Position numbers and translations under genes: made by a program
Part shown: positions 8,368-34,357 of the stretch, piece after piece
Numbering within the stretch: position 1 is the stretch's first letter
Layout: every line of letters starts with the position of its first letter
Notes under the pieces: model-generated
What the model saw: the letters and a program-made list of their open reading frames with translations, nothing else
Databases searched by the model: none
Told to the model about the DNA's origin: nothing
Assembly: GCF_900108305.1 (NCBI RefSeq)
Contig: NZ_FNUX01000001.1
Location: forward strand, 62,001 to 126,000
Direction of reading: 5' to 3'
Length of the DNA stretch: 64,000 nucleotides
Source: Nitrosomonas ureae
Lineage (GTDB): Bacteria > Pseudomonadota > Gammaproteobacteria > Burkholderiales > Nitrosomonadaceae

Positions 8368-9750
8368 TCACAAAGCCTTGACCATATGCTCAACGACTTT
8401 TTTAGCATCCCCGAATATCATCATGGTTTTATCCATATAGAATAGGTCATTATCAAGACCAGCATAACCTACAGCCATGCTGCGTTTGACCACCATAACG
8501 GTACGCGCTTTATGCGCATCCAGTATCGGCATACCATAAATCGGGCTACCGGGAACGTTCGCTGCCGGATTCACCACATCATTCGCACCCAATACCAGCA
8601 CAACATCTGTGTTTGAAAAATCGCTATTGATTTCATCCATTTCCAGAACTTGTTCATAAGGGATCTCGGCCTCTGCCAACAATACATTCATGTGCCCCGG
8701 CATACGCCCCGCTACCGGATGAATCGCAAAGCGTACGTTAACGCCTTTTTCGTGCAATATTTCAGCCAATTCCTTCACAGCATGTTGCGCTCTCGCAACG
8801 GCCAAGCCATATCCAGGAACAATAATGATGCTGTCGGCATTACCCATTAAGAAAGCGGCATCTTCCGCACTGCCACTGCGGTATGTCTTCTGTACACCAT
8901 CATCCGCCGCCGCTACGCTTCCGCCATCACTGCCAAAACCACCCAATATAACTGATAGAAATGGCCGATTCATGGCTTTACACATGATATACGAGAGAAT
9001 CGCACCCGAACTGCCTACCAGCGATCCTGCAATGATCAACATTGGATTGCCCAAAGAAAAACCAATACCTGCAGCAGCCCAACCCGAATAGGAGTTAAGC
9101 ATGGATATCACTACCGGCATATCAGCACCGCCAATAGGAATAATAATCAGGAATCCCAAGATGAAAGCAATTGCGGTCATTGCAATAAATGCGGTCCAGT
9201 TGGTCGTTTCGCTAAAGAAAAACCACAGACCAAATCCGATCATGATGATTGCCAGCAACAAATTAAGCATATGCTGACCGCTGAAAACAATCGGAGTACC
9301 ACTCATGCGTCCTGACAGCTTCAGGAACGCGATGACTGAACCGGACCATGTCATGGCGCCAATAAAGGTACCCAAAAACAATTCCAGCTTACTGCCCCCG
9401 GGAAGAATCTCTGGCAAACCGAATGAAACCGGATTATTGACCGCCGCAACCGCAATAAATACTGCTGCCAGACCAACCAGTGAATGCATAAAAGCAACCA
9501 ATTCAGGCATTGCTGTCATCTGTACGCGTTGCGCCACAACCGCGCCAATGATGCCACCCACCGCAATACATCCCAGAATCAAAAGCCAGTTCTGCGTAAG
9601 CGTCAAAGTTGTGGCAACAGCAATCGCCATACCCACCATGCCGAACAAATTTCCACGACGCGCAGATTCCGGCGAGCTTAGGCCTTTTAGTGCAAGTATA
9701 AAAAATACTGAAGCAACTAAATATGCAAGTGCTACCATATTTGCTGACAT
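8368..9750 (-). CDS. pntB: NAD(P) transhydrogenase subunit beta
   Basis: Membrane subunit plus NADP(H)-binding domain of the proton-translocating transhydrogenase. About the first 260 residues hold eight or more hydrophobic segments. The C-terminal domain III carries PGYGLAVARAQ (nucleotide fold) and VLVLGANDVVNPAA, both family hallmarks. At 460 residues it has the normal PntB length. It starts directly after the pntAB stop codon, so it is translated from the same message as the two alpha subunits. Expected role: NADPH supply driven by the proton gradient, useful to an autotroph. Confidence 0.97.
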   Translation of the reverse strand: MSANMVALAYLVASVFFILALKGLSSPESARRGNLFGMVGMAIAVATTLTLTQNWLLILGCIAVGGIIGAVVAQRVQMTAMPELVAFMHSLVGLAAVFIAVAAVNNPVSFGLPEILPGGSKLELFLGTFIGAMTWSGSVIAFLKLSGRMSGTPIVFSGQHMLNLLLAIIMIGFGLWFFFSETTNWTAFIAMTAIAFILGFLIIIPIGGADMPVVISMLNSYSGWAAAGIGFSLGNPMLIIAGSLVGSSGAILSYIMCKAMNRPFLSVILGGFGSDGGSVAAADDGVQKTYRSGSAEDAAFLMGNADSIIIVPGYGLAVARAQHAVKELAEILHEKGVNVRFAIHPVAGRMPGHMNVLLAEAEIPYEQVLEMDEINSDFSNTDVVLVLGANDVVNPAANVPGSPIYGMPILDAHKARTVMVVKRSMAVGYAGLDNDLFYMDKTMMIFGDAKKVVEHMVKAL

Positions 9751-10059
9751 TTACACGTTTCCTTTTTTATCTTTTTTCTTGAACATTTCCAGCATCCGTT
9801 GACTCACCAGAAACCCACCAAAAACATTGATTGCTGCCAGTGTAACTGCAGCAGCACCTAGCCAAACACCCCAGTCAGTCTCCGTCGGCCCTGCAGCCAA
9901 CATTGCACCGACAAGAATAATACCGGAAATAGCGTTAGTCACTGACATCAGAGGGGTATGCAGAGCCGGTGTAACGTTCCACACAACATGATAGCCAACA
10001 AAAACTGCCAGTACAAAAACCGTTAGATTGATAATAACCGGATCAATTTCACCAATCAT
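9751..10059 (-). CDS. pntAB: NAD(P) transhydrogenase subunit alpha, part 2
   Basis: A 102-residue membrane part of a split alpha subunit, as in Rhodospirillum rubrum. It has three hydrophobic segments ([20 protein letters not shown], then the [12 protein letters not shown] and [16 protein letters not shown] regions) and a charged C-terminus. The reading frame is open further upstream, but ATG 10059 has AAAGGAG six bases before it and gives the family's usual N-terminus (MIGEIDPV), so I choose it. It sits between pntAA and pntB. Confidence 0.93.
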
Positions 10060-10136
10060 ATTTACTCCTTTAAAATTCGTTAACTGTACTTTCTTGATGC
10101 AACAACTAAAAAGCGTTTTTAGTTTATCGCGGGTGA

Positions 10137-11264
10137 TTATGACTTTCCGGCGACCTCTCCGCCTGCACATAGCAATGTTCCCGCGATAATTTCATCTGAG
10201 CGGTCTATTTTCAGCGCATCATTTTCTTGATCAAGCATCAAGTTAAGGAAATTCATCAGATTTCGTGCATATAAAGTACTAGCGTCGGCTGCCACCAAAC
10301 CGGGAAGATTCGCAATACCAATCAGATGTACGCCATGTTTAATCACATTCTTATTTAGCTCGGATAATGGGCAGTTACCGCCTGCTTCAACCGCCATATC
10401 AACAATAACCGAACCTTGCTTCATCGCCTGAACGGTTTCCTCTTTGATCAAAACAGGTGCTGGACGTCCAGGAATTAATGCGGTGGTAATAATGATATCT
10501 GCCAAAATCGCACGCTCATGGACTAATTCTCCTTGCCGCCGCTTGTAATCATCCGACATTTCTGCCGCATATCCACCTGCTGTCTCAGCCTGAGCTTTTT
10601 CTTCCTCACTGAGCGGAACCTCTACAAACTTCGCCCCCAAACTCTCTACCTGCTCCTTAACCGCTGGTCGCACATCGAACGCTTCAACCACGGCACCCAA
10701 TCTTTTTGCGGTTGCAATAGCCTGCAATCCAGCGACACCCGCACCCAAAATCAAAACTCGCGCTGCCTTCACAGTACCCGCTGCCGTCATCAGCATTGGA
10801 AAGAATCTTTGATAGACATTTGCCGCCACAATCACCGCCTTATAGCCCGCAATGTTTGCTTGTGATGACAAAACATCCATGTTTTGCGCACGCGAAATAC
10901 GCGGTAATTTCTCCATTGCAAATGCGGTCAATCCATGCTGTGCAAGTGCATCCACGCCATCTTTCTGGTGCGGCGACAACAATCCCAACAATACCGCATC
11001 CTTACGCATCATCGCTAATTCACCGGATTCCGGACCACGCACTTTGAGCACAATTTGTGATTGCGCATACAATTCAGCCACATCAGTGACTATCATTGCG
11101 CCCGCCTCTTGATAGGCTGAATCCGGAATACTGGCACCCGCACCGGCACCTAGCTGGACTAAAACCTTATGAACACCCTTGGCAGTATATTTTTTCACGG
11201 TCTCCGGTGTAGCGGCTACACGCGTTTCTCCGCTGCGAATCTCTGCCGGTATGCCTATATGCAT
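10137..11264 (-). CDS. pntAA: NAD(P) transhydrogenase subunit alpha, part 1
   Basis: NAD(H)-binding soluble subunit of transhydrogenase, 375 residues. The N-terminal AlaDh/PNT fold starts [32 protein letters not shown] contains the RQD-loop residues. The Rossmann motif is [17 protein letters not shown]. It is the first gene of the pntAA-pntAB-pntB operon, with an AGGGAGA ribosome site. Alanine dehydrogenase is the nearest alternative, but the two downstream pnt genes settle the call. Confidence 0.97.
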
Positions 11265-21211: not shown

Positions 21212-21382
21212 ATGGAAAAATTAGTACAAGGTATTAAAAATTTTTGGTATGACGAAGCAGGCGCTACTGCGGTTGAATATGGTTTGATGGTTGCGCTAAT
21301 TGCGGTGGCTATTATCGGCACAGTACGGGCTCTTGGCGTAGGCTTAGATGGATTATTTGCACAGGTAACGGCTGCATTATAA
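21212..21382 (+). CDS. flp: Flp-type pilin precursor
   Basis: A 56-residue precursor of the type IVb Flp pilus. ATG 21212 has AAAGGA upstream and gives a 17-residue leader ending DEAG. Cleavage there exposes ATAVEYGLMVALIAVAII, with Glu at +5 and Tyr at +6, the Flp signature, followed by a hydrophobic helix. The mature pilin is only 39 residues. A strong terminator follows, which can give flp more transcript than the downstream assembly genes. Confidence 0.95.
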   Translation: MEKLVQGIKNFWYDEAGATAVEYGLMVALIAVAIIGTVRALGVGLDGLFAQVTAAL

Positions 21383-21420: not shown

Positions 21421-21453
21421 AGACCATCCATCGCTTGCTGGGTGGTCTTTTTT
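21421..21453 (+). terminator. Intrinsic terminator after flp
   Basis: AGACCATCCA pairs with TGGGTGGTCT (one G-T pair) around TCGCTTGC, followed by six T. This textbook terminator separates pilin from assembly genes. Confidence 0.9.
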
Positions 21454-21482: not shown

Positions 21483-22034
21483 ATGCATCTTCTAACGATA
21501 AATGTTTTGTTACTGTTGCTTTCTGTCGCAGCTTGGCAGGATTTTCGTAGTTACCGCATCAGCAACACGCTTGTTTTCTCAGGTGCATTACTGGGTGTCC
21601 TATTAAACACTTTCTTGCCTGTAGGGATAGGATTCACTGAATCACTAATGGGATGGGGCATCGGATTGCTACTGTTGCTGCCACTCTATCTGCTGCGCAT
21701 GATGGGTGCCGGAGATGTCAAGCTCATGGCCATGGTCGGGGCATTTGTCGGGACGAATGACATCATTAGCGTATTCCTGTACACCCTGATTGCTGGCGGC
21801 ATCATTGCATTGGTTGTCGCATTGCAGCGAGGAGTATTACGTAGATTGATGGATAATTTCATCTTCATGTTCTTGTCGGTATTGTCAGTCAATAAATCCA
21901 AGCCTTCAAAAGATAATCTTTCCGTGCTTGAAGAAGCTCCGGACTCTGTCGGAAAACTGCCTTACGGCATAGCAATAGCAGTGGGAACCATAACTTCCTT
22001 GGCGATTAATCACTCAACGCTAATGATTGATTAA
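21483..22034 (+). CDS. tadV: A24 prepilin peptidase (TadV/CpaA)
   Basis: 183 residues with about five to six hydrophobic segments. Both aspartates of the A24 aspartic protease are visible: WQDFRSYRISN after the first helix and GAGDVKLMA. It cleaves the Flp and pseudopilin leaders at the inner membrane. The protein lacks the N-terminal methyltransferase domain found in PilD, so it should cleave but not N-methylate. First gene of the tad assembly operon after the flp terminator. Confidence 0.93.
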   Translation: MHLLTINVLLLLLSVAAWQDFRSYRISNTLVFSGALLGVLLNTFLPVGIGFTESLMGWGIGLLLLLPLYLLRMMGAGDVKLMAMVGAFVGTNDIISVFLYTLIAGGIIALVVALQRGVLRRLMDNFIFMFLSVLSVNKSKPSKDNLSVLEEAPDSVGKLPYGIAIAVGTITSLAINHSTLMID

Positions 22035-22106: not shown

Positions 22107-22727
22107 ATGAGTACACTCCCTATCATTCTGCAATCCAGTCGATTCAATTTATATAGCGGTGCATTACTGGCAGCATTCTTTGGTATTTTCGCTTATGCGC
22201 ATTTCTTAGTGTTTCTGGATACAGGTAAATTATCACTGCTGCTGATCATTATTTCTGAAGCATTAACAACAGTTTTTTTTATTTTCCGCAGTAACCCAAA
22301 AACTGTTTCAGTGATTCCATCCGACTGGGTCGTAGCAATTATCGGTTCATTTGCACCGCTTTTTTTACGGCCAGCCGATTACGGGGTTTTGCCGCAAGCA
22401 GAAATATTGATCGCACTGGGTACAATACTGCAAATTGCCGGTCTTATCTCTCTCAATCGAAGTTTCGCCATTGTGGCCGCCAAACGTGAAATCAAAACGG
22501 GATGGATGTACCGTATGGTTCGCCATCCCCTCTATGCCAGTTATTTTTTGATATTTGGCGGTTATGTTTTAGTGCATACCACTACCATGAATCTGATTCT
22601 TTACTTAGTAACGATGAGTTTTCTTTGTTTGCGTATTTTCAGGGAAGAAAGACACCTGTCTCTTGATCCGGCATATCGCCACTATATGTTGAAGGTGCGG
22701 TACCGGATTATTCCGTATATCTTCTAA
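22107..22727 (+). CDS. ICMT/phospholipid-methyltransferase-like membrane protein
   Basis: 206 residues with about five membrane segments. The C-terminal half shows RMVRHPLYASYFLIFGGYVL and EERHLSLDPAYRHYMLKVRY, the RHPxY and EE-x-L...Y-x-x-Y pattern of the isoprenylcysteine carboxyl methyltransferase/PEMT family, which uses S-adenosylmethionine at the membrane. It lies inside the tad locus between prepilin peptidase and cpaB, which is not part of the standard Tad set. The substrate is unknown; see findings. Confidence 0.85.
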   Translation: MSTLPIILQSSRFNLYSGALLAAFFGIFAYAHFLVFLDTGKLSLLLIIISEALTTVFFIFRSNPKTVSVIPSDWVVAIIGSFAPLFLRPADYGVLPQAEILIALGTILQIAGLISLNRSFAIVAAKREIKTGWMYRMVRHPLYASYFLIFGGYVLVHTTTMNLILYLVTMSFLCLRIFREERHLSLDPAYRHYMLKVRYRIIPYIF

Positions 22728-22965: not shown

Positions 22966-23787
22966 ATGAAAAATACCCGAGCGCTTTTGATGATTCTGGT
23001 TTCACTGTTACTTGGATTGGTGGCTGTAGCGGTTGCAGGTAAATGGATCCATGAGAAGACACGTGTTGATGCATCAACGGTATTTGTCGCGATGCGCGAT
23101 ATTGATGCCGGCACACGACTGGCCCACGATATGCTGAAGAAAACAGATTGGCCAAGTGGCAGCATTCCCATCGGTGCATTTCAAGAAATTGAACTGCTGG
23201 AAAACCGTGTACTTAAAACGCATCTGGTGGCCGGAGAACCCGTTCTGGAATCCAAATTGGCCCCAATTGGCACCTCAGGCGGCCTATCGGGGGTGATTGC
23301 AGAAGGCAAGCGGGCTATTACAGTGCGAGTGAATGATGTCATTGGCGTAGCCGGTTTCGCATTACCTGGCAACCTGGTGGATATTCTGGTCAGCGCCAAG
23401 GATGAAAACCAGAAACCATTCTCGAAGCTGGTGCTGGAACAGATTCTAGTACTTGCCATCGCACAAGATGTCGGTCGTGATGATACCAAGCCTAAGGTAG
23501 TCACAGCCGTGACGTTAGAGGTATCTCCTGAGCAAGCCGAAACCCTGGATCTTGCCCGCAGTATCGGCACACTTTCTTTGGCACTGCGCAATCAGGTCGA
23601 TGGCCATCCTACCGATACACAGGGAAGACGCATTTCTGATCTACTCAAGCAACCCGCGCCAACCACGACAGCACCGGCCGAGCAGAAAACTGTTTATCGT
23701 TCCAGAGAACCGCAGTATGAATCTATTGCGATTATCCGTGGATTGAATAAAACCGAAACCAAATTGACAGAAGGAAAAGGCAAATGA
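22966..23787 (+). CDS. cpaB: Flp pilus assembly protein CpaB/RcpC
   Basis: 273 residues. An N-terminal membrane anchor (LMILVSLLLGLVAVAVAG) is followed by an SAF-like domain (FVAMRDIDAGTRLAHDMLKK) and the RcpC/CpaB core with KRAITVRVNDVIGVAGFALP and GNLVDILVS, the family signature. It is periplasmic and thought to stabilise or modify the secretin pore. Its stop overlaps the secretin start by four bases (ATGA). Confidence 0.93.
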   Translation: MKNTRALLMILVSLLLGLVAVAVAGKWIHEKTRVDASTVFVAMRDIDAGTRLAHDMLKKTDWPSGSIPIGAFQEIELLENRVLKTHLVAGEPVLESKLAPIGTSGGLSGVIAEGKRAITVRVNDVIGVAGFALPGNLVDILVSAKDENQKPFSKLVLEQILVLAIAQDVGRDDTKPKVVTAVTLEVSPEQAETLDLARSIGTLSLALRNQVDGHPTDTQGRRISDLLKQPAPTTTAPAEQKTVYRSREPQYESIAIIRGLNKTETKLTEGKGK

Positions 23788-25460
23788 AGCGACTGTTCAT
23801 CAACAACTTTCTGATAGCGACCATCAAGAGTTATTCTCGTATTCTTCTGCCTGTTGGCTTGGCTTCATTAATGATTCTGCAATCACCTGCACATGCTCAG
23901 ACAACGATACTCGCTAAATCCATTCCGTCTCTCGCGGAACAAAAAATGTTGCCCGAGCATTATCTATCGCAAACGGGTGCTGCCAAAATGAATGTCACAT
24001 TGGGCAAATCAACATTGCTGAAATTACCCAACGCCATTAAACGGATATCGGTGGGTAGTCCCAGCGTGGCTGATGTCATGTTAATCAATCCGCAGGAAGT
24101 TTATATCCTGGGCAAGATTGTCGGCATGACTAATATTACGCTATGGACAAGAGACGGCAAGACAACCGTTATTGACGTCACCGTGCTCATGGATGTAACG
24201 GCATTAAAGCATCAATTGCAGGCAATTATGCCCGACGAGAAAGATATTCAAATCACTGCAGCAGGTGATTCACTTATTGTGTCAGGCATGGTATCGAATA
24301 CATTAAAAGCTGACCGGATTATCGCGCTGGCTGATGCCTTTGTTCGTACTTCGGTACTTAATATGATGATGAATCTTCAAAGTAACCAACCCGATGCTGA
24401 CGGACAAGCAGGCGGTGGTGGTGGGCAAGGGGGAATGCAGGCGATGCAAATGCTGCGGCAAGGTTCGCAAAATGAAGCAAATTCTCCGGGTGCAGGTTCT
24501 GGTCTCGGTAATTTTAAAGTGATTAATTTACTAGGGGTTCGTGATCACCAGCAAGTCATGCTGGAGGTAAAAGTTGCTGAAGTGAACCGAACCGAAGCCG
24601 AGAAACTGGGTTTTGATTTTCAAGGTGCGATGAGAAAAACCGGAAGCGCCTGGACTCAGGTGATGGCAGGTTTAATCGGAGGCAGCCCGGCAAGCTTACT
24701 GCTAGGGAAGAATCTACCTACTTCAACCCTTTTAGGCGGTGCAAGCGAGGGAGGCTCTTTCTTAATTGATGCTGAGAAAACGGATAACGTCATAAAAGTC
24801 CTTGCTGAGCCGAATATTGTTGCGATTAGCGGTCAGGAAGCCAGTTTTCTGGTGGGGGGCGAAATCATGATTCCTGTCACTTCAGGCGTGGGGGGTGCTG
24901 TCAGGCTGCAATCCAAGCAGTTTGGCGTCGGATTAATTTTCCTGCCTACAGTTTTGGAAGAAGGCCGGATCAATTTAAGAGTCAACCCGGAAGTCTCTGA
25001 GTTGGTATCATTTCAGCAAGTTGCTTCGACGGGCTTGGGTGCCATTGTGGCAGTGCCGACTTTCAAGACGCGCCGTATTTCAACGACTGTTCAACTGCGC
25101 GATGGCCAATCACTGGCGATCGGTGGATTATTACAGGACAACTTCAAAGAACAAATCAAACGCTTCCCGATGCTGGGAGAAGTGCCGGTGCTGGGTGCCC
25201 TATTCAGCAGCAGTAATTATCTGATGGATAAAACCGAGTTGATGATTATCGTCACGCCACGTCTGGTACAACCATTGCAGCCGGATCATGCCATACCAAC
25301 CGATGCATTTATACGGCCAGGACGCGGAGAGCTCCTAATTCAAGGAAGACTGGAACGGGAAACTGATCCGTCAGACAACAGGGATGCACCACAGTATATG
25401 ATTGAGCAACCTAAAGGTCCGTCAGGTGCTGCTGAGCCCAGTGGATTTCAAATGAAATAA
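23784..25460 (+). CDS. rcpA: Secretin RcpA/CpaC of the Tad system
   Basis: 558 residues forming the outer-membrane channel for the Flp pilus. A signal peptide ends near SPAHAQ. A pilus-formation N-terminal domain carries KSTLLKLPNAIKRISVGSPS, and a BON-like repeat (MPDEKDIQITAAGDSLIVSG) follows. A Gly/Gln-rich linker is near residues 208-240. The secretin core is VPTFKTRRISTTVQLRDGQS, LAIGGLLQDN and TELMIIVTPRLV. Translationally coupled to cpaB. Confidence 0.96.
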   Translation: MKRLFINNFLIATIKSYSRILLPVGLASLMILQSPAHAQTTILAKSIPSLAEQKMLPEHYLSQTGAAKMNVTLGKSTLLKLPNAIKRISVGSPSVADVMLINPQEVYILGKIVGMTNITLWTRDGKTTVIDVTVLMDVTALKHQLQAIMPDEKDIQITAAGDSLIVSGMVSNTLKADRIIALADAFVRTSVLNMMMNLQSNQPDADGQAGGGGGQGGMQAMQMLRQGSQNEANSPGAGSGLGNFKVINLLGVRDHQQVMLEVKVAEVNRTEAEKLGFDFQGAMRKTGSAWTQVMAGLIGGSPASLLLGKNLPTSTLLGGASEGGSFLIDAEKTDNVIKVLAEPNIVAISGQEASFLVGGEIMIPVTSGVGGAVRLQSKQFGVGLIFLPTVLEEGRINLRVNPEVSELVSFQQVASTGLGAIVAVPTFKTRRISTTVQLRDGQSLAIGGLLQDNFKEQIKRFPMLGEVPVLGALFSSSNYLMDKTELMIIVTPRLVQPLQPDHAIPTDAFIRPGRGELLIQGRLERETDPSDNRDAPQYMIEQPKGPSGAAEPSGFQMK

Positions 25461-25473
25461 GGAGGAGATTATT

Positions 25474-25782
25474 ATGAACAAATTTTCTATCAAAGTAACT
25501 TTATGTTTGCCAATCATGATGCTGGTATTAACTGCTTGTGTCGCATCTCCCCCGAAGCGGATGGATGCCAGATTCGGTAATGCTTTTGGCATGGCAAAGG
25601 CGCAGCAAACCGTGAATCCTGATGCATCGCTGAACACAGCACCGGTTAGAGGAATTGATGGTCAAGCCGGCGATGCCATATTCGATAATTACCGGGAATC
25701 CTATGCTACTCCCAAACCACCGGCTCGTGGTGCGCTGGATGTAGGAACCAGTGGCGGTAGCAGCGGCAGCGGCATGCAGTAA
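25474..25782 (+). CDS. Small Tad lipoprotein (CpaD/RcpB position)
   Basis: 102 residues with a lipobox (VLTAC, Cys at about 22), a proline-rich mature part and a Gly/Ser tail. A strong AGGAGGAG ribosome site precedes it. It sits directly after the secretin, where CpaD or RcpB is encoded in other tad loci, but it is much shorter than these and shows no clear similarity. A secretin pilotin role is inferred from position alone. Confidence 0.75.
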   Translation: MNKFSIKVTLCLPIMMLVLTACVASPPKRMDARFGNAFGMAKAQQTVNPDASLNTAPVRGIDGQAGDAIFDNYRESYATPKPPARGALDVGTSGGSSGSGMQ

Positions 25783-25840
25783 TAATTTACAAGTTATCTA
25801 TCGGCATTGAAATTGGCAGTCACCATCAGAAGGATTGGTT

Positions 25841-27118
25841 ATGCGCAGCATGAATACTCCTAGCTTAGGAAAAAGATATCAAGGTAATCTAAACATCGAA
25901 AAAGAGCGCGGTGTCGTCGCTATTATGGTGGCGTTATCTATGGCGGTGTTGATTGGTTTTGTCGGGCTTGCACTGGATCTGGGTAAACTTTTCGTGACCA
26001 AATCAGAATTGCAGAACAGTGCGGATGCCTGTGCATTGGCGGCTGCACGGGAATTGACAGGTGCCAGCACGAATCAATTGACGCTTGCCGAAGCAGCGGG
26101 CATAACGGCAGGAATCAGCAACAATGTTCAATTTCAGAATGATCCCGTTACTGTCAATGCCGATGATGTCACTTTCAGTGAAACGCTCAACGGCACTTAT
26201 CTGACCAAAGACGCAGTGGCGAATGTGCTGACAATGAGATTTGCACGCTGCACTGTCCAGCGCACAGGTATTGCCAATTGGTTTGTACAGGTGCTGGGTA
26301 TTGGTGACCAGCAGGTCAGTGCAACGGCCGTGGCCAGCCTTGTTCCCGGCCAGACAACTTGTGCGGTTCCTGCCGGGGTTTGTCAAGCGGATATAGCAGC
26401 AGCGGTACCGGGCACTTGGATACAAGGCGTGCTCGGACCCAGTGGTGATCTGACGGGTGGATTCAAATGGATCGACTACTCTCCACCCGGTGGGGGGGCA
26501 TCTGAACTAAGCGATTTATTGACAGGAACAGGATCCTGCAATCTTCCAGCAGTTGGAAGTATTGTGGGACAAGGTGGCGTGATTTCTTCCTTGTCAAGAG
26601 CCTGGAATAGCCGTTTTGGTATTTACCGGAATCCTGTTGAAGATACGCCAGGGCAGCCGGGATTTGCAGTGCCCGATAAAACAGGTTTTGCTTATACGGA
26701 AGTCACATGGCCCAGTCAATTCAATGCATTTAGTGACTTTGCAACACATAGAGGAAATCCTCCGGCTGCCTATCAAGGTGATGGCGCTACTGGTTTAAAT
26801 GCTCAAGGTGGTGGAGCTGTAACTGTGGATCCAACATTTCTCCAGCAGCATGGAGCGGATCGCAGACTGGCTACTGTGGCTGTAGTAGATTGTGACGTAC
26901 TGAACGCTGGTGGACCCACTGCGCCCGTATTATCCTGGGCATGTATATTGATGCTGCACCCTATCAATTTTAATTCGGGTGGCAGTGGCACTGGAGCAGA
27001 CCGAATGTATGTTGAATATCTAGGGCAATCGAATGATCCACTGAGTCCTTGCGCATCATCGGGCGCTGTTGGTGGCCCAGGCAGTGTAGGGCCATTGGTG
27101 CCGGCCTTAGTGCAGTGA
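25841..27118 (+). CDS. tadG: TadG-like pilus assembly protein
   Basis: 425 residues from ATG 25841, which has AGAAGG seven bases upstream; a TTG six bases earlier is less likely. RGVVAIMVALSMAVLIGFVG and LALDLGKLFVTKSELQNSAD form the TadG/TadE-like N-terminal helix with ALAAARELTG after it. The rest is a Gly/Ser-rich periplasmic region with several cysteines that may pair. No von Willebrand A motif was seen, unlike long TadG proteins. Confidence 0.85.
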   Translation: MRSMNTPSLGKRYQGNLNIEKERGVVAIMVALSMAVLIGFVGLALDLGKLFVTKSELQNSADACALAAARELTGASTNQLTLAEAAGITAGISNNVQFQNDPVTVNADDVTFSETLNGTYLTKDAVANVLTMRFARCTVQRTGIANWFVQVLGIGDQQVSATAVASLVPGQTTCAVPAGVCQADIAAAVPGTWIQGVLGPSGDLTGGFKWIDYSPPGGGASELSDLLTGTGSCNLPAVGSIVGQGGVISSLSRAWNSRFGIYRNPVEDTPGQPGFAVPDKTGFAYTEVTWPSQFNAFSDFATHRGNPPAAYQGDGATGLNAQGGGAVTVDPTFLQQHGADRRLATVAVVDCDVLNAGGPTAPVLSWACILMLHPINFNSGGSGTGADRMYVEYLGQSNDPLSPCASSGAVGGPGSVGPLVPALVQ

Positions 27119-27131
27119 GTTTACGAACGTT

Positions 27132-27614
27132 ATGGCTATCCTTATGAATAAAAGAAATATTCAATTAAACCCAAGAACCATGCGTGGTTCCGTAGCGGTT
27201 GAGCTGGCATTGCTTTTAATTCCATTGATTGTATTAGCTCTGGGTGTTGCGGAATTTGGCCGTGCGATGTATCAATATAATACTGTGGTTAAAACAGTCC
27301 GTGATGCTGCCCGCCTACTATCCCAGCATAGCCCAAGCGATACTGCCAACTATCCAGAAACAGAAGCGCGATGCCTGGTTGTGCATGGTTCAGCGGACTG
27401 TTCGGGGTCGGCGCTTTTGCCCGGATTAACTATAGGCATGGTGGGAATTGCATCATCCACGACGACCACTGGAGCAGGCGCCAGCATCAATCTGGTGACG
27501 GTCACTGTGACAGGCTACACTTTTAACTTTGTCTTCAATCCATTGGTTTTCTTCGGCAGCAGCATGACTACCCTACCGTTTGATCCTATCCAAACTACCA
27601 TGAGGCAGCTATGA
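27132..27614 (+). CDS. tadE: TadE-like pseudopilin
   Basis: 160 residues. MRGSVAVELALLLIPLIVLA carries a prepilin-type cleavage site after Gly with Glu at +5, then EFGRAMYQYNTVVKTVRDAA, the conserved TadE stretch. The C-terminal part is beta-rich and periplasmic with a cysteine pair (EARCLVVHGSADC). It overlaps the next gene by four bases. Confidence 0.92.
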   Translation: MAILMNKRNIQLNPRTMRGSVAVELALLLIPLIVLALGVAEFGRAMYQYNTVVKTVRDAARLLSQHSPSDTANYPETEARCLVVHGSADCSGSALLPGLTIGMVGIASSTTTTGAGASINLVTVTVTGYTFNFVFNPLVFFGSSMTTLPFDPIQTTMRQL

Positions 27615-28048
27615 GACGAATCCATTTAGCGGCTAGTCAATTTTCACAGCGGGGTGTTGCGGCTGTAGAGTTTGCCATCATTGCCGTAATACTGTTCACA
27701 TTGTTATTCGGCATCATGGAATTTGGCCGCGTACTGTTCATGATGAATGCTACGACAGAAGCAACTCGTTTGGGCGCTCGTTTGGCAGTAGTTTGTGATC
27801 AGAATGATACCGTCATCACCACGAAAATGGTGAATTTAGCAGGCTTCTTAAATCCGGGTAATATTAATGTTACATACAGCCCGGGTGGGTGTGATCCAAT
27901 TTCGTGCCGCTATGTAACAGTTAGCGTGACTGGGTTAACTGTGCAGTCACTTGTTCCGTTAATACCTATCAATTTTCAGATGCCTGGTTTCTCAACGACG
28001 TTGCCGCGCGAGAGTATGTCGAGTCTTAACAATCCGGTATGCACTTAG
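27611..28048 (+). CDS. tadF: TadE/TadF-like pseudopilin
   Basis: 145 residues. QRGVAAVEFAIIAVILFTLL gives a cleavage site with Glu at +5, followed by FGIMEFGRVLFMMNATTEAT. Like its neighbour it should be processed by TadV and serve as a minor pilin. Cysteines at CDQND and the CDPISC segment may pair. TadF is assigned by order; sequence alone says TadE superfamily. Confidence 0.88.
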   Translation: MRRIHLAASQFSQRGVAAVEFAIIAVILFTLLFGIMEFGRVLFMMNATTEATRLGARLAVVCDQNDTVITTKMVNLAGFLNPGNINVTYSPGGCDPISCRYVTVSVTGLTVQSLVPLIPINFQMPGFSTTLPRESMSSLNNPVCT

Positions 28049-28077: not shown

Positions 28078-29274
28078 GTGATTATTGCTGCTATCTCACA
28101 GAAACAACAAATTCTGGAAAGTATTCGTCAATTTTTGTCTGAATTTGATATATCACATCCATCCTTCCACGGTTCGGATCAGGAAAATACACATAAGATA
28201 TTAACTATCAATGGTGGGATACAACAAGTAACCGCGGTTGCTGAACAAGAACATCCTGACCTGTTGTTATTGGAAAGTTCAGATGCTATGGAGAGTGAAC
28301 TACAGGTACTGGGAAATGTAACCGCGCGATTCCCGAGTTTGGGCGTCATCTTGTTATGTCCGATCCAGTCTCCTGAACGATTGTTGGAAGTCATGCGCGT
28401 AGGCGTTCGAGAAGCGCTTCCAACGCCACTGACCCGCGAATCACTACTGGGTGCAATTAATCGTTTTCAGCACAGAATCAAACAGGCAGGTATGCCTGTC
28501 AGGAGTGGAAAGGTTTTGGCGTTTATTCCCTGTAAAGGAGGAAGCGGGGCTACATTCTTAGCCACTAATCTGGCTTATACGCTGGCAGCACAGAACAACC
28601 AACGAGTCGCCTTAATTGACTTTAATCTTCAGTTGGGAGATGCCTCACTTTTTCTGAGCGATAGCAAATCTCCCGCATCGATTGCTGATGTCACTCGACA
28701 AATTCACCGGCTGGATGGGTCATTCCTGGCTTCCAGCATGATTCAGATTTTACCTAATTTGGGTATTTTAGCAGCACCGGATGAACCGGAAAAAGCAACG
28801 GAAATAAAACCCGAACATGTTAATCCCCTGCTTCAGGTTGCGATCAAGAATTATGATTTTGTCATTCTTGATATCGGTCGACGTATGGATGCCATATCAA
28901 TCCAGGCACTCGACAAAGCCGAGATGATTTTCCCAGTGTTGCAGCAGACTTTGCCATTTATCCGCGATGCCAAGCGCCTGATCGATGCATTCCATTCATT
29001 AGGCTACCACAAGGAAAAGTTGCGGCTTATTGTCAACCGTTATGACAAAAAAAGCGAGATTACGCTGGATGATATTCAGAATACACTTAAGAATCAGGTT
29101 TTTAAATCTATTCCCAACAACTTCTCCGTAGTCGATGAATCGGTGAACCACGGCGTGCCAGTCTTCAAACTTGCTCAGCGCAGTCCAATCTCCAGAGCAA
29201 TTGAAGAGATCAGCAATGAATTGAGTCTGAATACTGAACAACAAGAACGCTGGTTTAAAAGACTATTCTCTTAA
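28078..29274 (+). CDS. tadZ: TadZ/CpaE, ParA-like localisation ATPase
   Basis: 398 residues from GTG 28078 with AGAGGAA upstream. The N-terminal third is a receiver-like atypical domain without a clear phospho-acceptor (HPDLLLLESSD). The C-terminal part is a MinD/ParA-type ATPase with the deviant Walker A CKGGSGATFLATNLA and VALIDFNLQLGD. It places the Tad machine at its polar or patchy site. Confidence 0.94.
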   Translation: MIIAAISQKQQILESIRQFLSEFDISHPSFHGSDQENTHKILTINGGIQQVTAVAEQEHPDLLLLESSDAMESELQVLGNVTARFPSLGVILLCPIQSPERLLEVMRVGVREALPTPLTRESLLGAINRFQHRIKQAGMPVRSGKVLAFIPCKGGSGATFLATNLAYTLAAQNNQRVALIDFNLQLGDASLFLSDSKSPASIADVTRQIHRLDGSFLASSMIQILPNLGILAAPDEPEKATEIKPEHVNPLLQVAIKNYDFVILDIGRRMDAISIQALDKAEMIFPVLQQTLPFIRDAKRLIDAFHSLGYHKEKLRLIVNRYDKKSEITLDDIQNTLKNQVFKSIPNNFSVVDESVNHGVPVFKLAQRSPISRAIEEISNELSLNTEQQERWFKRLFS

Positions 29275-29298: not shown

Positions 29299-30669
29299 AT
29301 GTCTATACGGGATCGCTTACAACGCTGGGGAGAGAATAATACAAATGTGCCTGAACAGGTACTGATTATGGAAGATAGCATTACGCAGCTCGAGAAAAGT
29401 TCGTATCATGAGCTTAAATCCAAGATACATCAAAAACTACTCGACCGCGTTGATCTATCCGTGATGGAGAGGTTACCTTCAGATCGTTTGATGAACGAGA
29501 TCAAGGATCTTGTAGAACAATTACTGAATGAAGAGAAAATACCGATTAATCTGGCAGAAAGAGGCGGTTTGGTCTCCGATATTCAGCATGAAATTCTTGG
29601 TTTGGGGCCATTAGAGCCTTTACTGGCTGATCCAACAATTTCCGATATTCTGGTTAATACTTATAATCAGGTTTATGTCGAACGCCGCGGTAGACTGGAA
29701 CTAACAGATGCCCACTTTGCCGATAACCGTCATTTGATGAGAATTATAGACCGCATCGTATCCAGAATTGGGCGCCGCGTCGATGAATCCAGTCCGATGG
29801 TTGATGCCCGCTTATCAGACGGTTCCCGTGTCAATGCCATTATTCCGCCATTGGCTTTGGACGGGCCGTTATTATCTATCCGGCGCTTTCCGGCAGCTCC
29901 TCTTAAGATGGACGATCTGGTTCGCTATAAATCACTGACACCGTCAATGGCCGAAGTAATCGCAGGGCTTGTTAAAAGTAAGTGCAATATTCTCATTTCC
30001 GGTGGAACTGGTAGTGGCAAAACGACGTTGCTTAATATTATGTCCGGTTTTATTCCAGCATCTGAGAGGGTTGTGACTATCGAAGATGCGGCGGAACTGC
30101 AGCTACAACAACCCCATGTTGTGCGGCTTGAAACACGCCCTCCAAATGTTGAAGGTAAGGGTGAAGTAGCACAACGCGCATTAGTCCGCAATAGCCTGCG
30201 CATGCGGCCGGATCGAGTCATAATCGGTGAAGTGCGCGGCCCTGAAGCCATGGATATGTTGCAAGCCATGAATACAGGTCACGAAGGCTCTATGGCCACA
30301 GTGCACGCGAATACACCCAGAGATGCATTGAGTCGGATTGAAAATATGGTCAGCATGGCTGAAATGAATCTTCCTGCTAAAGCTGTACGACAGCAGATCA
30401 GCTCTGCAATCTGGGTCGTTGTTCAAGTTTCCCGTATGACAGATGGAAAACGCAAGCTAATCAGCATTCAGGAAATTACCGGTATGGAAGGCGACATTAT
30501 TACCATGCAGGAGATTTTTACTTATAGCCAGACAGGTGTAGATGAAAATGGAGTTATCCAGGGACACTTTCATGCGACCGGGATTCGACCCAAATTTGCT
30601 GAACGCTTGAAGGTATTCGGCATTCCTCTACGAGACGAATTGTTTGATCCGGGTAAAATCTTTCAATAA
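29299..30669 (+). CDS. tadA: Tad secretion ATPase TadA/CpaF
   Basis: 456 residues, hexameric motor for pilus extension and, in this family, retraction. An N-terminal all-helical domain is followed by the T2SSE core: Walker [15 protein letters not shown], Asp box ([12 protein letters not shown]), Walker [21 protein letters not shown] and the His box [15 protein letters not shown]. It is followed by tadB and tadC, the inner-membrane platform it drives. Confidence 0.97.
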
Positions 30670-30678
30670 CGAGGTTGT

Positions 30679-31662
30679 TTGCAGAAAATGGACTATTCTT
30701 ATTATTTGTTTATAGCCTTGGTATTTGTGGCGATTGTGCTATTTCTGGAAGGACTGTACTTAACATGGAATGCCTATAAAGGGCCAGAAGCAGTTCGTAT
30801 CGAGAAACGGCTACAAACTATCTCTGCGGGTTGGCAGGACGCTACCGAGCGAAACCTGATTAAACAGCGGTTATTAAGTGATTCTCCAGCCTTAGAGCGC
30901 CTGTTGTTACAAATCCCGCGAATTCATAGTCTAGACCGGCTATTGATTCAGTCAGGCATGGAACTCAGTGTAACAGGCTTTCTGGGCTATACCTGCATAG
31001 CCGCACTGGGTGGCATGGCCATTGCGTTACTGTTGAATTTGCATTTCTTAATACTATTGCTGTGTGCCATAGTAGCCGGGTTATTTCCTGTTTTATTGGT
31101 ACTGAGTGCACGACATAAACGTTTGCTAAAAATTGAAGAACAATTGCCGGATGCCATGGATTTAATGGCGCGTGCATTGAAGGCTGGCCATGCCTTCTCC
31201 GGGGCGCTGCAAATGGTTTCCAGTGAAGGCGCGGAACCCATTGCAGGTGAATTCAGTACAACATTTGAAGAAGTCAATTATGGTATTTCGATGCAGGAAG
31301 CACTCATGAATCTCAGTACACGTGTACCCAGCACTGACCTGCGCTATCTTGTCATTGCAGTGCTTATTCAACGTGAAAGCGGTGGCAATCTGGCAGAGTT
31401 ACTTGAAAGTATCAGCAGCCTGATCCGGGCGCGCCTCAAATTATTAGGGACTATTCGTGTTCTGTCAGCAGAAGGACGTTTGTCAGCCTGGATTCTAGGC
31501 TGTTTGCCATTTGCAATAGCATTTTTAGTCCATCTGATTAATCCAGGATACTTGAATTTATTGTTTACAGATCCGTTAGGACACTTACTTCTCGGTGGTT
31601 CCTTAACGATGATGGTGATCGGAATTTTTGCCATGTGGCGGATTATTAAAATCCGGGTATGA
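30679..31662 (+). CDS. tadB: Tad inner-membrane platform protein TadB
   Basis: 327 residues with a T2SSF domain (LEEQ-type QLPDAMDLMARALKAGHAFS and NYGISMQEALMNLSTRVPST) and membrane segments at both ends. The start is TTG 30679 (GAGG just upstream) or ATG 30688. It forms with TadC the base on which TadA acts. Confidence 0.94.
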   Translation: MQKMDYSYYLFIALVFVAIVLFLEGLYLTWNAYKGPEAVRIEKRLQTISAGWQDATERNLIKQRLLSDSPALERLLLQIPRIHSLDRLLIQSGMELSVTGFLGYTCIAALGGMAIALLLNLHFLILLLCAIVAGLFPVLLVLSARHKRLLKIEEQLPDAMDLMARALKAGHAFSGALQMVSSEGAEPIAGEFSTTFEEVNYGISMQEALMNLSTRVPSTDLRYLVIAVLIQRESGGNLAELLESISSLIRARLKLLGTIRVLSAEGRLSAWILGCLPFAIAFLVHLINPGYLNLLFTDPLGHLLLGGSLTMMVIGIFAMWRIIKIRV

Positions 31663-31739: not shown

Positions 31740-32681
31740 ATGACCATGATTCAAATAGCTTATCTAGTCATCGTTTTTATTGCCGTAGCTGGCGGGGTAT
31801 TTGGATTGATGCGATTGCTGACATCTAATCCGACACAATCGCGACTGGATCAAATTGCATCCGAACATGCTGAAACATTTTTAAATGAATCCAGTCAATG
31901 GGAGCAGGCTACCAATAAGCTCACAAGCCCATTTGCCACACTTTCCCTGCCAAGTGAAGGCTGGGAAAACTCTGTATTACGCATTCGTTTTATGCATGCA
32001 GGTTACCGCACACAGTCAATACCCTTCTTTTATTTTGGAGGAAAAACATTATTGGCCTTAATCCTGCCAGGTATTTTCTTTCTTTATGTGGGTGTCAGCC
32101 GTTTGGAGATAAATACTGATGTCTCTTTATTTTTTTTCCTTATATTAGCTGCGGCGGGTTACTACCTGCCTAATTTAGCCTTGGCACATATCATTAAGCT
32201 ACGTCAGCGCGACTTGTTTGAGAACTTTCCTGATGCTATTGATCTCATGACGGTTTGTGTTGAGGCAGGATTAGGACTAGATGCAGCAATGAAAAAGGTC
32301 GGGGAAGAGATGCATGTGAAGTGCAAACCATTGGCGGAAGAGCTTCATTTGGTCAATCTGGAAATGCGCGCAGGCAGAAGCCGCGAACAAGCATTGCGAA
32401 ATCTGGCACTGCGCACCGGGGTTGAAGAAATAGAAGGGCTGGTTGCCATGTTGATACAAGCGGATCGTTTTGGCACCAGTATTGCATCTTCTCTACGTAT
32501 TCACTCCGATATGCTGCGTACCAAACGCCGCCTGCGTGCGGAAGAGGCAGCAGCCAAAATAGCGCTCAAGCTTCTTTTTCCACTCATTTTCTTTATTTTC
32601 CCGTCATTATTTGTGGTCATAATTGGTCCAGCAGCTATCATTATTCATCGAGTTCTGTTACCGACGATGGCTGGAGGTTAA
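31740..32681 (+). CDS. tadC: Tad inner-membrane platform protein TadC
   Basis: 313 residues with a T2SSF domain: FENFPDAIDLMTVCVEAGLG, then EMRAGRSREQALRNLALRTG and RADRFGTS-like QADRFGTSIASSLRIHSD, followed by the RRLRAEEAAAKIALKLLFPL exit helix. Paralogous to tadB and immediately after it. Confidence 0.95.
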   Translation: MTMIQIAYLVIVFIAVAGGVFGLMRLLTSNPTQSRLDQIASEHAETFLNESSQWEQATNKLTSPFATLSLPSEGWENSVLRIRFMHAGYRTQSIPFFYFGGKTLLALILPGIFFLYVGVSRLEINTDVSLFFFLILAAAGYYLPNLALAHIIKLRQRDLFENFPDAIDLMTVCVEAGLGLDAAMKKVGEEMHVKCKPLAEELHLVNLEMRAGRSREQALRNLALRTGVEEIEGLVAMLIQADRFGTSIASSLRIHSDMLRTKRRLRAEEAAAKIALKLLFPLIFFIFPSLFVVIIGPAAIIIHRVLLPTMAGG

Positions 32682-32700: not shown

Positions 32701-33234
32701 ATGTACAAACTAAAACAATCACTGCTGATCATTGGCTGCCTGCTGATATTGGGAGGGTGCGCCACTTCGCAGCAAAAGAATAATAATGAAACTGATTCAT
32801 TATCCAAGTCGGAAGATTCACGTTTGGTGGAAGCCAAGCAGTTATATCAATTGGGTCGCGAATACTATCAGAAAAAGGAATACGCTGAAGCAATCAATGT
32901 CTATGAAAAATCTATTGAGCTAATGCCTGAGAATTACGACGCTTACAATAATTTGGGAGTAATCTATTCGATCCTGGGAGAAGATGAGCTTGCGCTCCAC
33001 TTTATCAAAGAAGCCATTCGACTGGCGCCTACATTATCCTATTTACACAACAATCTTGGTTATTCGTTGTTAAAACAAGGATACAACAGTGAAGCAGCCG
33101 GTGCATTCGAACGTGCGTTGCAACTCGATCCTGAAAATTCACATGCACGCAATAACCTGCGATCAGCATATAAGCGAATGGGATGCACCCCAAATGAACC
33201 TTGTGGACAATGGCAAGAACCCAAACAACCCTAG
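32701..33234 (+). CDS. tadD: TadD-like TPR lipoprotein
   Basis: 177 residues with lipobox LILGGCAT (Cys at 20), then about three TPR units (KKEYAEAINVYEKSIELMPE, NYDAYNNLGVIYSILGEDEL, SEAAGAFERALQLDPENSHA). TadD proteins are needed for secretin assembly in other species. It ends with a cysteine-bearing tail (GCTPNEPCGQW). Confidence 0.9.
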   Translation: MYKLKQSLLIIGCLLILGGCATSQQKNNNETDSLSKSEDSRLVEAKQLYQLGREYYQKKEYAEAINVYEKSIELMPENYDAYNNLGVIYSILGEDELALHFIKEAIRLAPTLSYLHNNLGYSLLKQGYNSEAAGAFERALQLDPENSHARNNLRSAYKRMGCTPNEPCGQWQEPKQP

Positions 33235-33319: not shown

Positions 33320-34357
33320 ATGTTCAAGATAAAACGACTTAGTTGGATAGTAGGCTGTGCACTTGCTTTAAATGGATGTGCTTTTATGCAAAAAGATACA
33401 TCAATGGCAGATATTGAAATCAAACCTGTGATGAATATAAAGCATGCAAATGGCAGTCCAAAAATCATGTATTTATTAGGACGATACTATCAGGGCAAGA
33501 TAGATTACCAAAAAGCAATTGCTGCCTATGAAAGAGCGCTGGAAGAAAAGCCTGATTATGTTGAAGTGCATAATGGTTTGGGCGTTATTTATTCCATACA
33601 AGGCCGACATGAACTATCACTGCAACACTTCCGCACGGCGATTGAATACGCGCCGGTGGAAACCTATTTGTATAACAACCTTGGTTATGCCTATCTGATT
33701 CAGGGCAATACAGCTGAAGCCGTTAAATCACTCGAGAAAGCAGTATTGTTGGACCCTGACAATAAAAGGGCACAACTTAATTTGGCAGTTGCGCAAGAAA
33801 GAATCAATCTGGGTGATAAAGCAGCTGCATTGCAGACAGACTCGATTGACCCGTTGCCTCTTGTCATGCAAGAAGTTTCCAACACTAACGTCAATGAGGT
33901 AAATGATAAGGCTGAGTCCCTGGCCACATCCGTGCCATATCGCGCAGATGATCAGGTTTCTCATCATAATGACTCTAAATCAGTGGATAGCACATACCTC
34001 CGATTAGAAATTTCGAATGGTAATGGCATTACAGGCATGGCAAAGCAGGTATCAGTTTTTTTTCAACAACACGGCGTTGCAAAAGCAAGGTTAACAAATC
34101 ACCAGACATACAAACATTATCAAACCGAAATTTATTATCGCTCAGGAAATTATGATCAAGCTTATCAGATCAATAAAATGTTACCCATACAAGTCAAGTT
34201 GGTTGAAAGTAACGAATTGCGAAGCGATATACAAATAAAAATTCTATTAGGGCAGGATTTCTCCCGTGAAGCTGCTTATTTTAATAAAAAAGAACTAATG
34301 CAAGTCAGCCAAAATGCTAAAAAATCCTTAAAAATCCTTAACCAGTCGATAAATTAG
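33320..34357 (+). CDS. TPR lipoprotein with LytR_C-type domain
   Basis: 345 residues. The lipobox is LALNGCAF. Three TPR units resemble those of the upstream TadD (YQGKIDYQKAIAAYERALEE and following), so the two genes look like an old duplication. After a polar linker the last 110 residues begin YLRLEISNGNGITGMAKQVS and resemble the LytR C-terminal domain, found on envelope proteins. It is the last gene of the tad run; a role in anchoring the pilus to the envelope is inferred. Confidence 0.82.
   Translation: MFKIKRLSWIVGCALALNGCAFMQKDTSMADIEIKPVMNIKHANGSPKIMYLLGRYYQGKIDYQKAIAAYERALEEKPDYVEVHNGLGVIYSIQGRHELSLQHFRTAIEYAPVETYLYNNLGYAYLIQGNTAEAVKSLEKAVLLDPDNKRAQLNLAVAQERINLGDKAAALQTDSIDPLPLVMQEVSNTNVNEVNDKAESLATSVPYRADDQVSHHNDSKSVDSTYLRLEISNGNGITGMAKQVSVFFQQHGVAKARLTNHQTYKHYQTEIYYRSGNYDQAYQINKMLPIQVKLVESNELRSDIQIKILLGQDFSREAAYFNKKELMQVSQNAKKSLKILNQSIN

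Follow-up and report, generated by a model that had tools for sequence, protein, structure and literature searches.

A predicted ICMT/PEMT-fold membrane methyltransferase gene found with one subtype of tad pilus locus

Introduction

What is a membrane methyltransferase gene doing in the middle of a pilus locus? The window analysed here, a 64,000-nt stretch of the Nitrosomonas ureae genome, holds a full tad locus in which an open reading frame (ORF) for such an enzyme lies 72 bp 3′ of tadV, the prepilin peptidase gene, and 238 bp 5′ of cpaB. PilD, according to PMC10191384 and PMC4471445, cuts the prepilin and then methylates it with SAM on the cytoplasmic side, and TadV is described for the Tad (T4cP) system, again in PMC10191384, as lacking the PilD methylase domain; the T4cP component table there has no entry for a methyltransferase. 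A sequence-only reading of the window had proposed that the neighbouring enzyme supplies the missing methylation to the N terminus of Flp or a pseudopilin, or else modifies a lipid or isoprenoid needed by the pilus, and had known of no earlier description of such a partner. Our searches point the same way on this last point, in that none of the matches listed among open-licence PMC papers describes a Tad-associated ICMT-like methyltransferase. The word ‘methyltransferase’ is absent from the main text of a Bradyrhizobium Tad paper (PMC12918737) and of a Caulobacter in situ paper (PMC13170226), ‘methylat’ occurs in PMC11067988 in the reference list only, and PMC10224339, a paper not about Tad, reports an ICMT-like gene adjoining a collagen-like adhesin gene.

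Results

A membrane methyltransferase gene within a tad locus

The ORF encodes a protein of 206 aa and was confirmed as a real gene, and many stops interrupt one reverse frame read across it. The gene is under purifying selection, with a dN/dS of 0.078 against a relative 94% identical to it and of 0.067–0.161 over five pairs, in one of which dS is saturated. The best Pfam match is PEMT (PF04191; 32.8 bits against a cut-off of 25, over residues 100–185), slightly ahead of ICMT (27.1 bits against a cut-off of 24, in the second half of the protein). With both scores over their cut-offs, the label ‘ICMT-like’ that had been given to this gene in the tad locus is right, PEMT being the slightly better one. 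All 21 family members that we collected match both models (Pfam, E up to 0.01). No NCBIfam model passed, and the three that match the enzyme do so far under their cut-offs: the protein-S-isoprenylcysteine O-methyltransferase equivalog NF040696 (27.2 bits against 160), the methanethiol methyltransferase MddA (NF045656; 24.1 bits against 270) and the lipid A Kdo2 1-phosphate methyltransferase LmtA (TIGR04571; 19 bits against 325). The PilD-type N-methylase domain A24_N_bact (PF06750) is absent from the Pfam matches of the family, and a PADLOC search returned no match.

An alignment of the 21 family sequences has no internal gaps and 53 invariant columns, the other 20 members being 56–94% identical to the window enzyme. 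Among the invariant residues are R139, H140, P141, Y143, E180 and E181, which make up RHPxY and EE motifs that we take to be the C-terminal SAM region of the ICMT/PEMT fold. The catalytic activity of the enzyme is presumably SAM-dependent methyl transfer.

The structure model of the enzyme (pLDDT 75.7) has six long predicted helices. By Z-score its closest structure is Ma-ICMT (4a2n; Z 10.5 over 165 residues, rmsd 3.5, a Z that lies within the chance range for helical bundles), followed by a eukaryotic ICMT (5v7p; Z 8.3), the best unrelated structure reaching Z 7.5. Identity in these structure alignments is 16–17%, and the first 36 residues of the enzyme precede the part that aligns to Ma-ICMT. 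Foldseek alone gave zero matches to the model at E 0.001, and sequence searches of the PDB gave two distinct matches, 8xku (5.7e-9) and 4a2n (2.7e-4), the latter aligned with the RHPxYA and EE stretch. An ICMT-like membrane helix fold is thus predicted for the enzyme. The predicted cytoplasmic loops contain nine Lys/Arg residues and the predicted periplasmic loops two, a distribution from which the SAM-binding end should face the cytoplasm. This would place it on the side where prepilins are cut, a topology compatible with action on pilins.

Table 1. The methyltransferase gene and the tad locus around it, with positions in the window
Feature	Coordinates	Strand	Basis
flp, major Tad prepilin (56 aa)	21212..21382	+	Pfam Flp_Fap 56.5 bits
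Hairpin + T run 3′ of flp, terminator/attenuator-like	21428..21445	+	Consensus scan; 2 found in the region against 1.8 expected
tadV, prepilin peptidase, peptidase domain only	21483..22034	+	Peptidase_A24 70 bits
Predicted ICMT/PEMT-fold integral membrane methyltransferase	22107..22727	+	Pfam, predicted structure, family conservation, dN/dS
cpaB/rcpC	22966..23787	+	TIGR03177 248.6 bits; RcpC and SAF domains
rcpA secretin	23784..25460	+	Pfam Secretin 145.6 bits
Small lipoprotein-like protein	25474..25782	+	Without a Pfam hit (E up to 0.001); ‘lipoprotein’ by eye
tadG-like	25835..27118	+	Pfam Tad 50.7 bits
tadE-like minor pilin	27132..27614	+	Pfam TadE 53.3 bits
Second tadE/F-like minor pilin	27611..28048	+	Pfam TadE 49.9 bits
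tadZ/cpaE	28078..29274	+	CbiA 46.2, AAA_31 45.3 bits; named by position
tadA/cpaF ATPase	29299..30669	+	T2SSE 213.4 bits
tadB platform protein	30679..31662	+	T2SSF 60.8 bits; B/C by order
tadC platform protein	31740..32681	+	T2SSF 69.8 bits; B/C by order
tadD-like TPR protein	32701..33234	+	TPR families
Second TPR protein with C-terminal LytR_C domain	33320..34357	+	TPR and LytR_C
AAA-type ATPase, ~478 aa	34428..35864	-	ORF; 64% identical to the copy adjoining the methyltransferase in Nitrosospira

The locus has the same core gene set as the described Tad (T4cP) machinery and differs from it by the extra methyltransferase. Cleavage of Flp is expected after the Gly of DEAG, leaving a mature protein that begins ATAVEY. 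The small lipoprotein-like protein is also present in related tad loci. The AAA-type ATPase is seen repeatedly at tad loci, both in genomes with the methyltransferase and in genomes without it, and was found in 7 of the 58 stretches of a class-wide cpaB survey; it lies at the tadD end in the window, adjoins the methyltransferase in Nitrosospira, and occupies the tadV–cpaB gap in Pseudomonadales and in two methanotroph loci. The segment 22760–22965, 5′ of cpaB, is conserved in G072 and partly in G097, two genomes without the methyltransferase, and for this reason the cpaB operon may have a separate promoter.

Known family members lie with tad genes

Within the genus, 14 of 85 genomes gave a match, and after those scoring at most 25.4 bits (6 genomes) were left out, 8 orthologue carriers remained, the window’s genome included. 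TadV and TadA (E up to 1e-80) were each found in 15 of the 85 genomes, TadV being present in all 8 carriers and in 7 of the 77 non-carriers (Fisher p 1.3e-7, uncorrected for kinship). A collection-wide scan, which reaches close relatives only because it is based on short conserved peptides, yielded 19 loci, six of them on contigs equal in length to those of known carriers; together with the window and G108 these make 21 distinct loci, distributed over Nitrosomonas, Nitrosospira, Pseudomonadales, methanotrophs and Pseudogulbenkiania. Tad genes lie within 10 kb of the methyltransferase at all 21, although at one locus (G071) these are flp and tadV only and at another (L090) they are 6 kb away. 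Linkage to tad is thus far from rare when viewed from the gene, contrary to the outcome that would have spoken against a Tad partner.

Full-length members are rare: the other genomes of a 370-genome draw from the class held none, the window enzyme scoring 364 bits and the next sequence 53.7 bits over part of the model. In a 299-genome draw from the phylum, the next best sequences scored 85–137 bits and came from two families outside the class; on the 5–10 kb to each side of the 10 nearest of these outside relatives we found no tad-machine genes, one neighbourhood giving TPR-only matches to tadD queries. Viral contigs (13 stretches with the pattern) held no relative, and the seven plasmid records were every one below 60% identity. 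All members known to date occur with tad genes, and together they make up a small conserved family.

More distant homologues from the same outside group (47–62 bits) lie near tad at six of the seven sites inspected. Three (L158, L159 and L160), from a single genus in a different class of the phylum, perhaps Alphaproteobacteria, are ~0.5–1.4 kb away from a tad locus on its tadV side, and in two of the three an acyltransferase-like gene (by eye) adjoins the distant ICMT homologue. Three more in that genus are 7–9 kb from cpaB with unrelated genes between, which we read as chance synteny; the seventh (L246) has no tad genes on 13 kb, and L252, another distant homologue, has a weak match to a secretin at a distance of 6.8 kb. 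These six cases indicate that nearness to tad can by itself arise without the family. That ICMT proteins in general go with tad was considered and not adopted; the three homologues near tadV may or may not reflect such a link.

Linkage is kept across different gene orders

Relative to tad, the methyltransferase occurs in five or more arrangements, on one strand or the other, with linkage kept throughout. It lies directly 3′ of tadV on the same strand in 5 of the 21 loci (the window, G108, G007, G036 and G071), with a gap of 72 bp in the window and of 60–97 bp, measured between BLAST matches, in the other four. In G036 the flp-tadV-methyltransferase block is inverted relative to the rest of tad. 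Three loci (G062, G098 and G017) have it divergent and upstream of flp. In the four Nitrosospira loci it adjoins the AAA ATPase and is convergent with tadD, tadV being outside the stretch examined, and in the five Pseudomonadales loci it is divergent from flp/tadV, with an AraC-type regulator between in four. Three methanotrophs (Methylobacter, Crenothrix and Methylococcaceae) have it 3′ of tadZ on the same strand. The weakest case is Pseudogulbenkiania (L090), where unrelated genes intervene in the 6.2 kb that separate it from flp. In total, 16 of the 21 loci have the gene somewhere other than immediately next to tadV.

The copy in G071, a Nitrosomonas MAG, belongs to a flp-tadV-methyltransferase block (L065:7727–9028 and 9237–10441) that has no other tad gene on 11.7 kb and adjoins a transposase-like ORF (by eye), and the G071 genome, 90% complete, gave no TadA match at E up to 1e-80. 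This methyltransferase is also the longest branch on the enzyme tree, and the block may therefore be a decaying remnant. Separately, G006, a one-contig genome, has flp-tadV with no TadA match at E up to 1e-80.

Seen from the tad side the enzyme is optional

CpaB scored over its cut-off in 57 of the 370 class genomes. In the 58 class-wide cpaB stretches from 56 other genomes, 29 stretches falling short of the intended 19.9 kb, we found no ICMT/PEMT-type ORF (best E 0.17, HMMER filters off). As a positive control, these models recovered the enzyme at all 12 loci tried, nine of them represented in the family model and three only in the broad one. From the tad side, the methyltransferase is optional.

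We placed 77 TadA sequences on a tree, 20 from carriers (G071 having no TadA) and 57 from non-carriers (seven genomes of the genus plus 50 of the 58 survey stretches). All 20 carriers fall inside one set of 35 rows (SH-aLRT 87), with none among the other 42, and within the tree the carrier label requires at least nine changes, four of them forced by starred branches; the gene thus appears to be patchy within one Tad subtype. Enzyme and TadA identities correlate across 20 loci (Spearman 0.74, none of 5000 permutations as high), and the gamma loci (Pseudomonadales and methanotrophs) stand apart from the beta loci in both trees, with a support of 88/92 in the enzyme tree. Between Nitrosomonas and Pseudomonadales, identity is higher for the enzyme (60%) than for TadA (56%), whereas within Nitrosomonas it is lower (71% against 81%), and for this reason some transfer between tad lineages is possible. 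The simplest account would be an old member of one Tad subtype that was lost many times, possibly with some transfer. The TadA proteins of the non-carriers G072 and G097 are 94% and 89% identical to that of the window, and neither genome gave a remnant of the methyltransferase (tblastn best E 0.38 in G072; no DNA match in either).

TadV has a single domain with or without the enzyme

TadV has the peptidase domain only, as had been stated for the window, in all 13 proteins scanned, nine from carriers and four from non-carriers (one of the 13, L026, was scanned without its first residues). None of the 13 has a Pfam match to the PF06750 methylase domain, and D20 and D78 are invariant among them. 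A PilD-type methylase domain is encoded elsewhere in the window’s genome (117.5 bits, in a frame of 299 aa) and could act in trans. The sequence-only reading had suggested a survey of tad loci against TadV domain content, and here the outcome went against it: TadV is single-domain both with and without the enzyme, and none of the 58 cpaB stretches holds the gene. The idea of a partner enzyme accordingly survives in part. A partner of Tad it very probably is, with tad genes nearby at 21 of 21 loci, but as a general compensation for the missing methylase of TadV it is not supported, in view of these two observations and of the PilD-type domain elsewhere in the genome.

Nor did residues +1 to +6 of Flp contain a signature that tracks the presence of the methyltransferase in our comparison, for which no Flp was listed in 3 of 17 carrier stretches (L086, L089 and L092) and 2 of 15 non-carrier stretches (L068 and L172), four Nitrosospira being left out. 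The first residue of mature Flp is A, V, M or L in carriers and A, V, M, L or I in non-carriers. The motif EYG occurs in 7 of 8 genus carriers and in 2 of 6 genus non-carriers with a listed Flp, and Pseudomonadales carriers read EYA. Every listed Flp has Glu5, as the search pattern demanded.

Discussion

A rare family whose known members sit with pilus genes suggests an enzyme dedicated to some Tad pili, and that the methyltransferase is a Tad-dedicated accessory enzyme is well supported and, in our judgement, very probable. For its substrate, which could be a pilin N terminus, another pilin group or a lipid, the case is much less firm, and we see roughly an even chance that it acts on a pilin of any kind. 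The explanation that we favour as a whole, that of an ICMT/PEMT-fold maturation enzyme, optional within one Tad subtype, that methylates Tad pilins, is a tentative one to which we give somewhat less than an even chance.

Under this explanation, TadV would cleave the prepilin and expose a new alpha-amino group on Flp, perhaps also on TadE/TadF, and the methyltransferase would use cytoplasmic SAM to methylate Tad pilins at the cytoplasmic face of the inner membrane. Its best single target would be the alpha-amino group exposed by TadV, a mechanism that we regard as possible rather than probable even though no other single mechanism does better. PEMT members methylate amines, a chemistry thus known for the fold, and N-terminal methylation is feasible on the predicted topology; the flp-tadV-enzyme block of Nitrosomonas also fits methylation after TadV cleavage. 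Against this count the single-domain TadV proteins in loci without the enzyme, the 16 of 21 loci in which the gene is not beside tadV, the lack of an accompanying feature in Flp and the PilD-type domain elsewhere in the genome, all of which leave the N-terminal reading unproven. Methylation of the C-terminal carboxyl of Flp, the literal chemistry of ICMT, was also considered and is unlikely because the pilin C terminus is outside the cytoplasm.

The main rival explanation, which we consider unlikely but take seriously, is that the enzyme is a Tad-linked lipid or isoprenoid methyltransferase, acting on a membrane lipid headgroup in the manner of PEMT or on a prenyl lipid needed by the pilus machine or its secretin. 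Known members of the ICMT/PEMT fold act on small membrane-embedded substrates and PEMT is the best Pfam match, both of which favour a lipid. There is little reason, however, for a general lipid enzyme to accompany one Tad subtype at all 21 loci, and the models for isoprenylcysteine, methanethiol and lipid A 1-phosphate methyltransferases all match far under their cut-offs.

Less probable again is that another group on a Tad protein is methylated in place of the N-terminal amine, either the side-chain carboxylate of Glu5 in Flp or a component of the machine such as TadB/C or TadZ. ICMT makes carboxyl methyl esters, Glu5 is present in all Flp listed (if by construction of the search pattern), and in three loci the methyltransferase lies 3′ of tadZ. 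In type IV pili, however, it is the charge of Glu5 that matters, and this charge would be lost in a methyl ester. According to PMC4471445, homopolymeric type IV pili are not formed when Glu5 is mutated.

That an unrelated membrane methyltransferase has simply been carried along with the tad locus by chance would accommodate its patchiness in the Tad subtype (the nine or more changes on the TadA tree, four of them forced) and the distant homologues found close to tad, though not clearly linked to it, in a genus from another class, but is very improbable given the five or more arrangements on either strand, the purifying selection, and the finding of no tad-free full-length member in the genus, collection, class and phylum scans.

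Comparison with known enzymes places the favoured maturation enzyme apart from each of them. It is like ICMT in predicted fold and in the RHPxYA and EE stretch but differs in its low identity, its score under the equivalog cut-off and its context in a pilus locus; it is like the PEMT family in its best Pfam match, from which it differs in that its own family is tied to tad loci. With the N-methylase of PilD it would share only the proposed chemistry, SAM-dependent methylation after prepilin cleavage, being an unrelated, separate polypeptide of predicted ICMT fold without a PF06750 match. For Tad, this separate protein would thereby take on the role that the N-terminal domain of PilD has for type IVa pilins.

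The evidence tying the methyltransferase to Tad goes well beyond what one neighbourhood could show, and our interpretation of it is plausible but not settled by sequence. The system offers a clean experimental setting, with one detachable gene, natural non-carriers in G072 and G097, and a 56-residue prepilin suited to mass spectrometry. It is conceivable, if somewhat doubtful, that the enzyme represents a second, independently evolved route to pilin N-methylation, in which a stand-alone ICMT-fold protein acts on the N termini exposed by single-domain TadV; cleavage and methylation, fused in PilD, would then be split between two unrelated proteins in this Tad subtype. If the substrate is instead a lipid, the enzyme would connect membrane lipids with Tad pili in an unexpected way.
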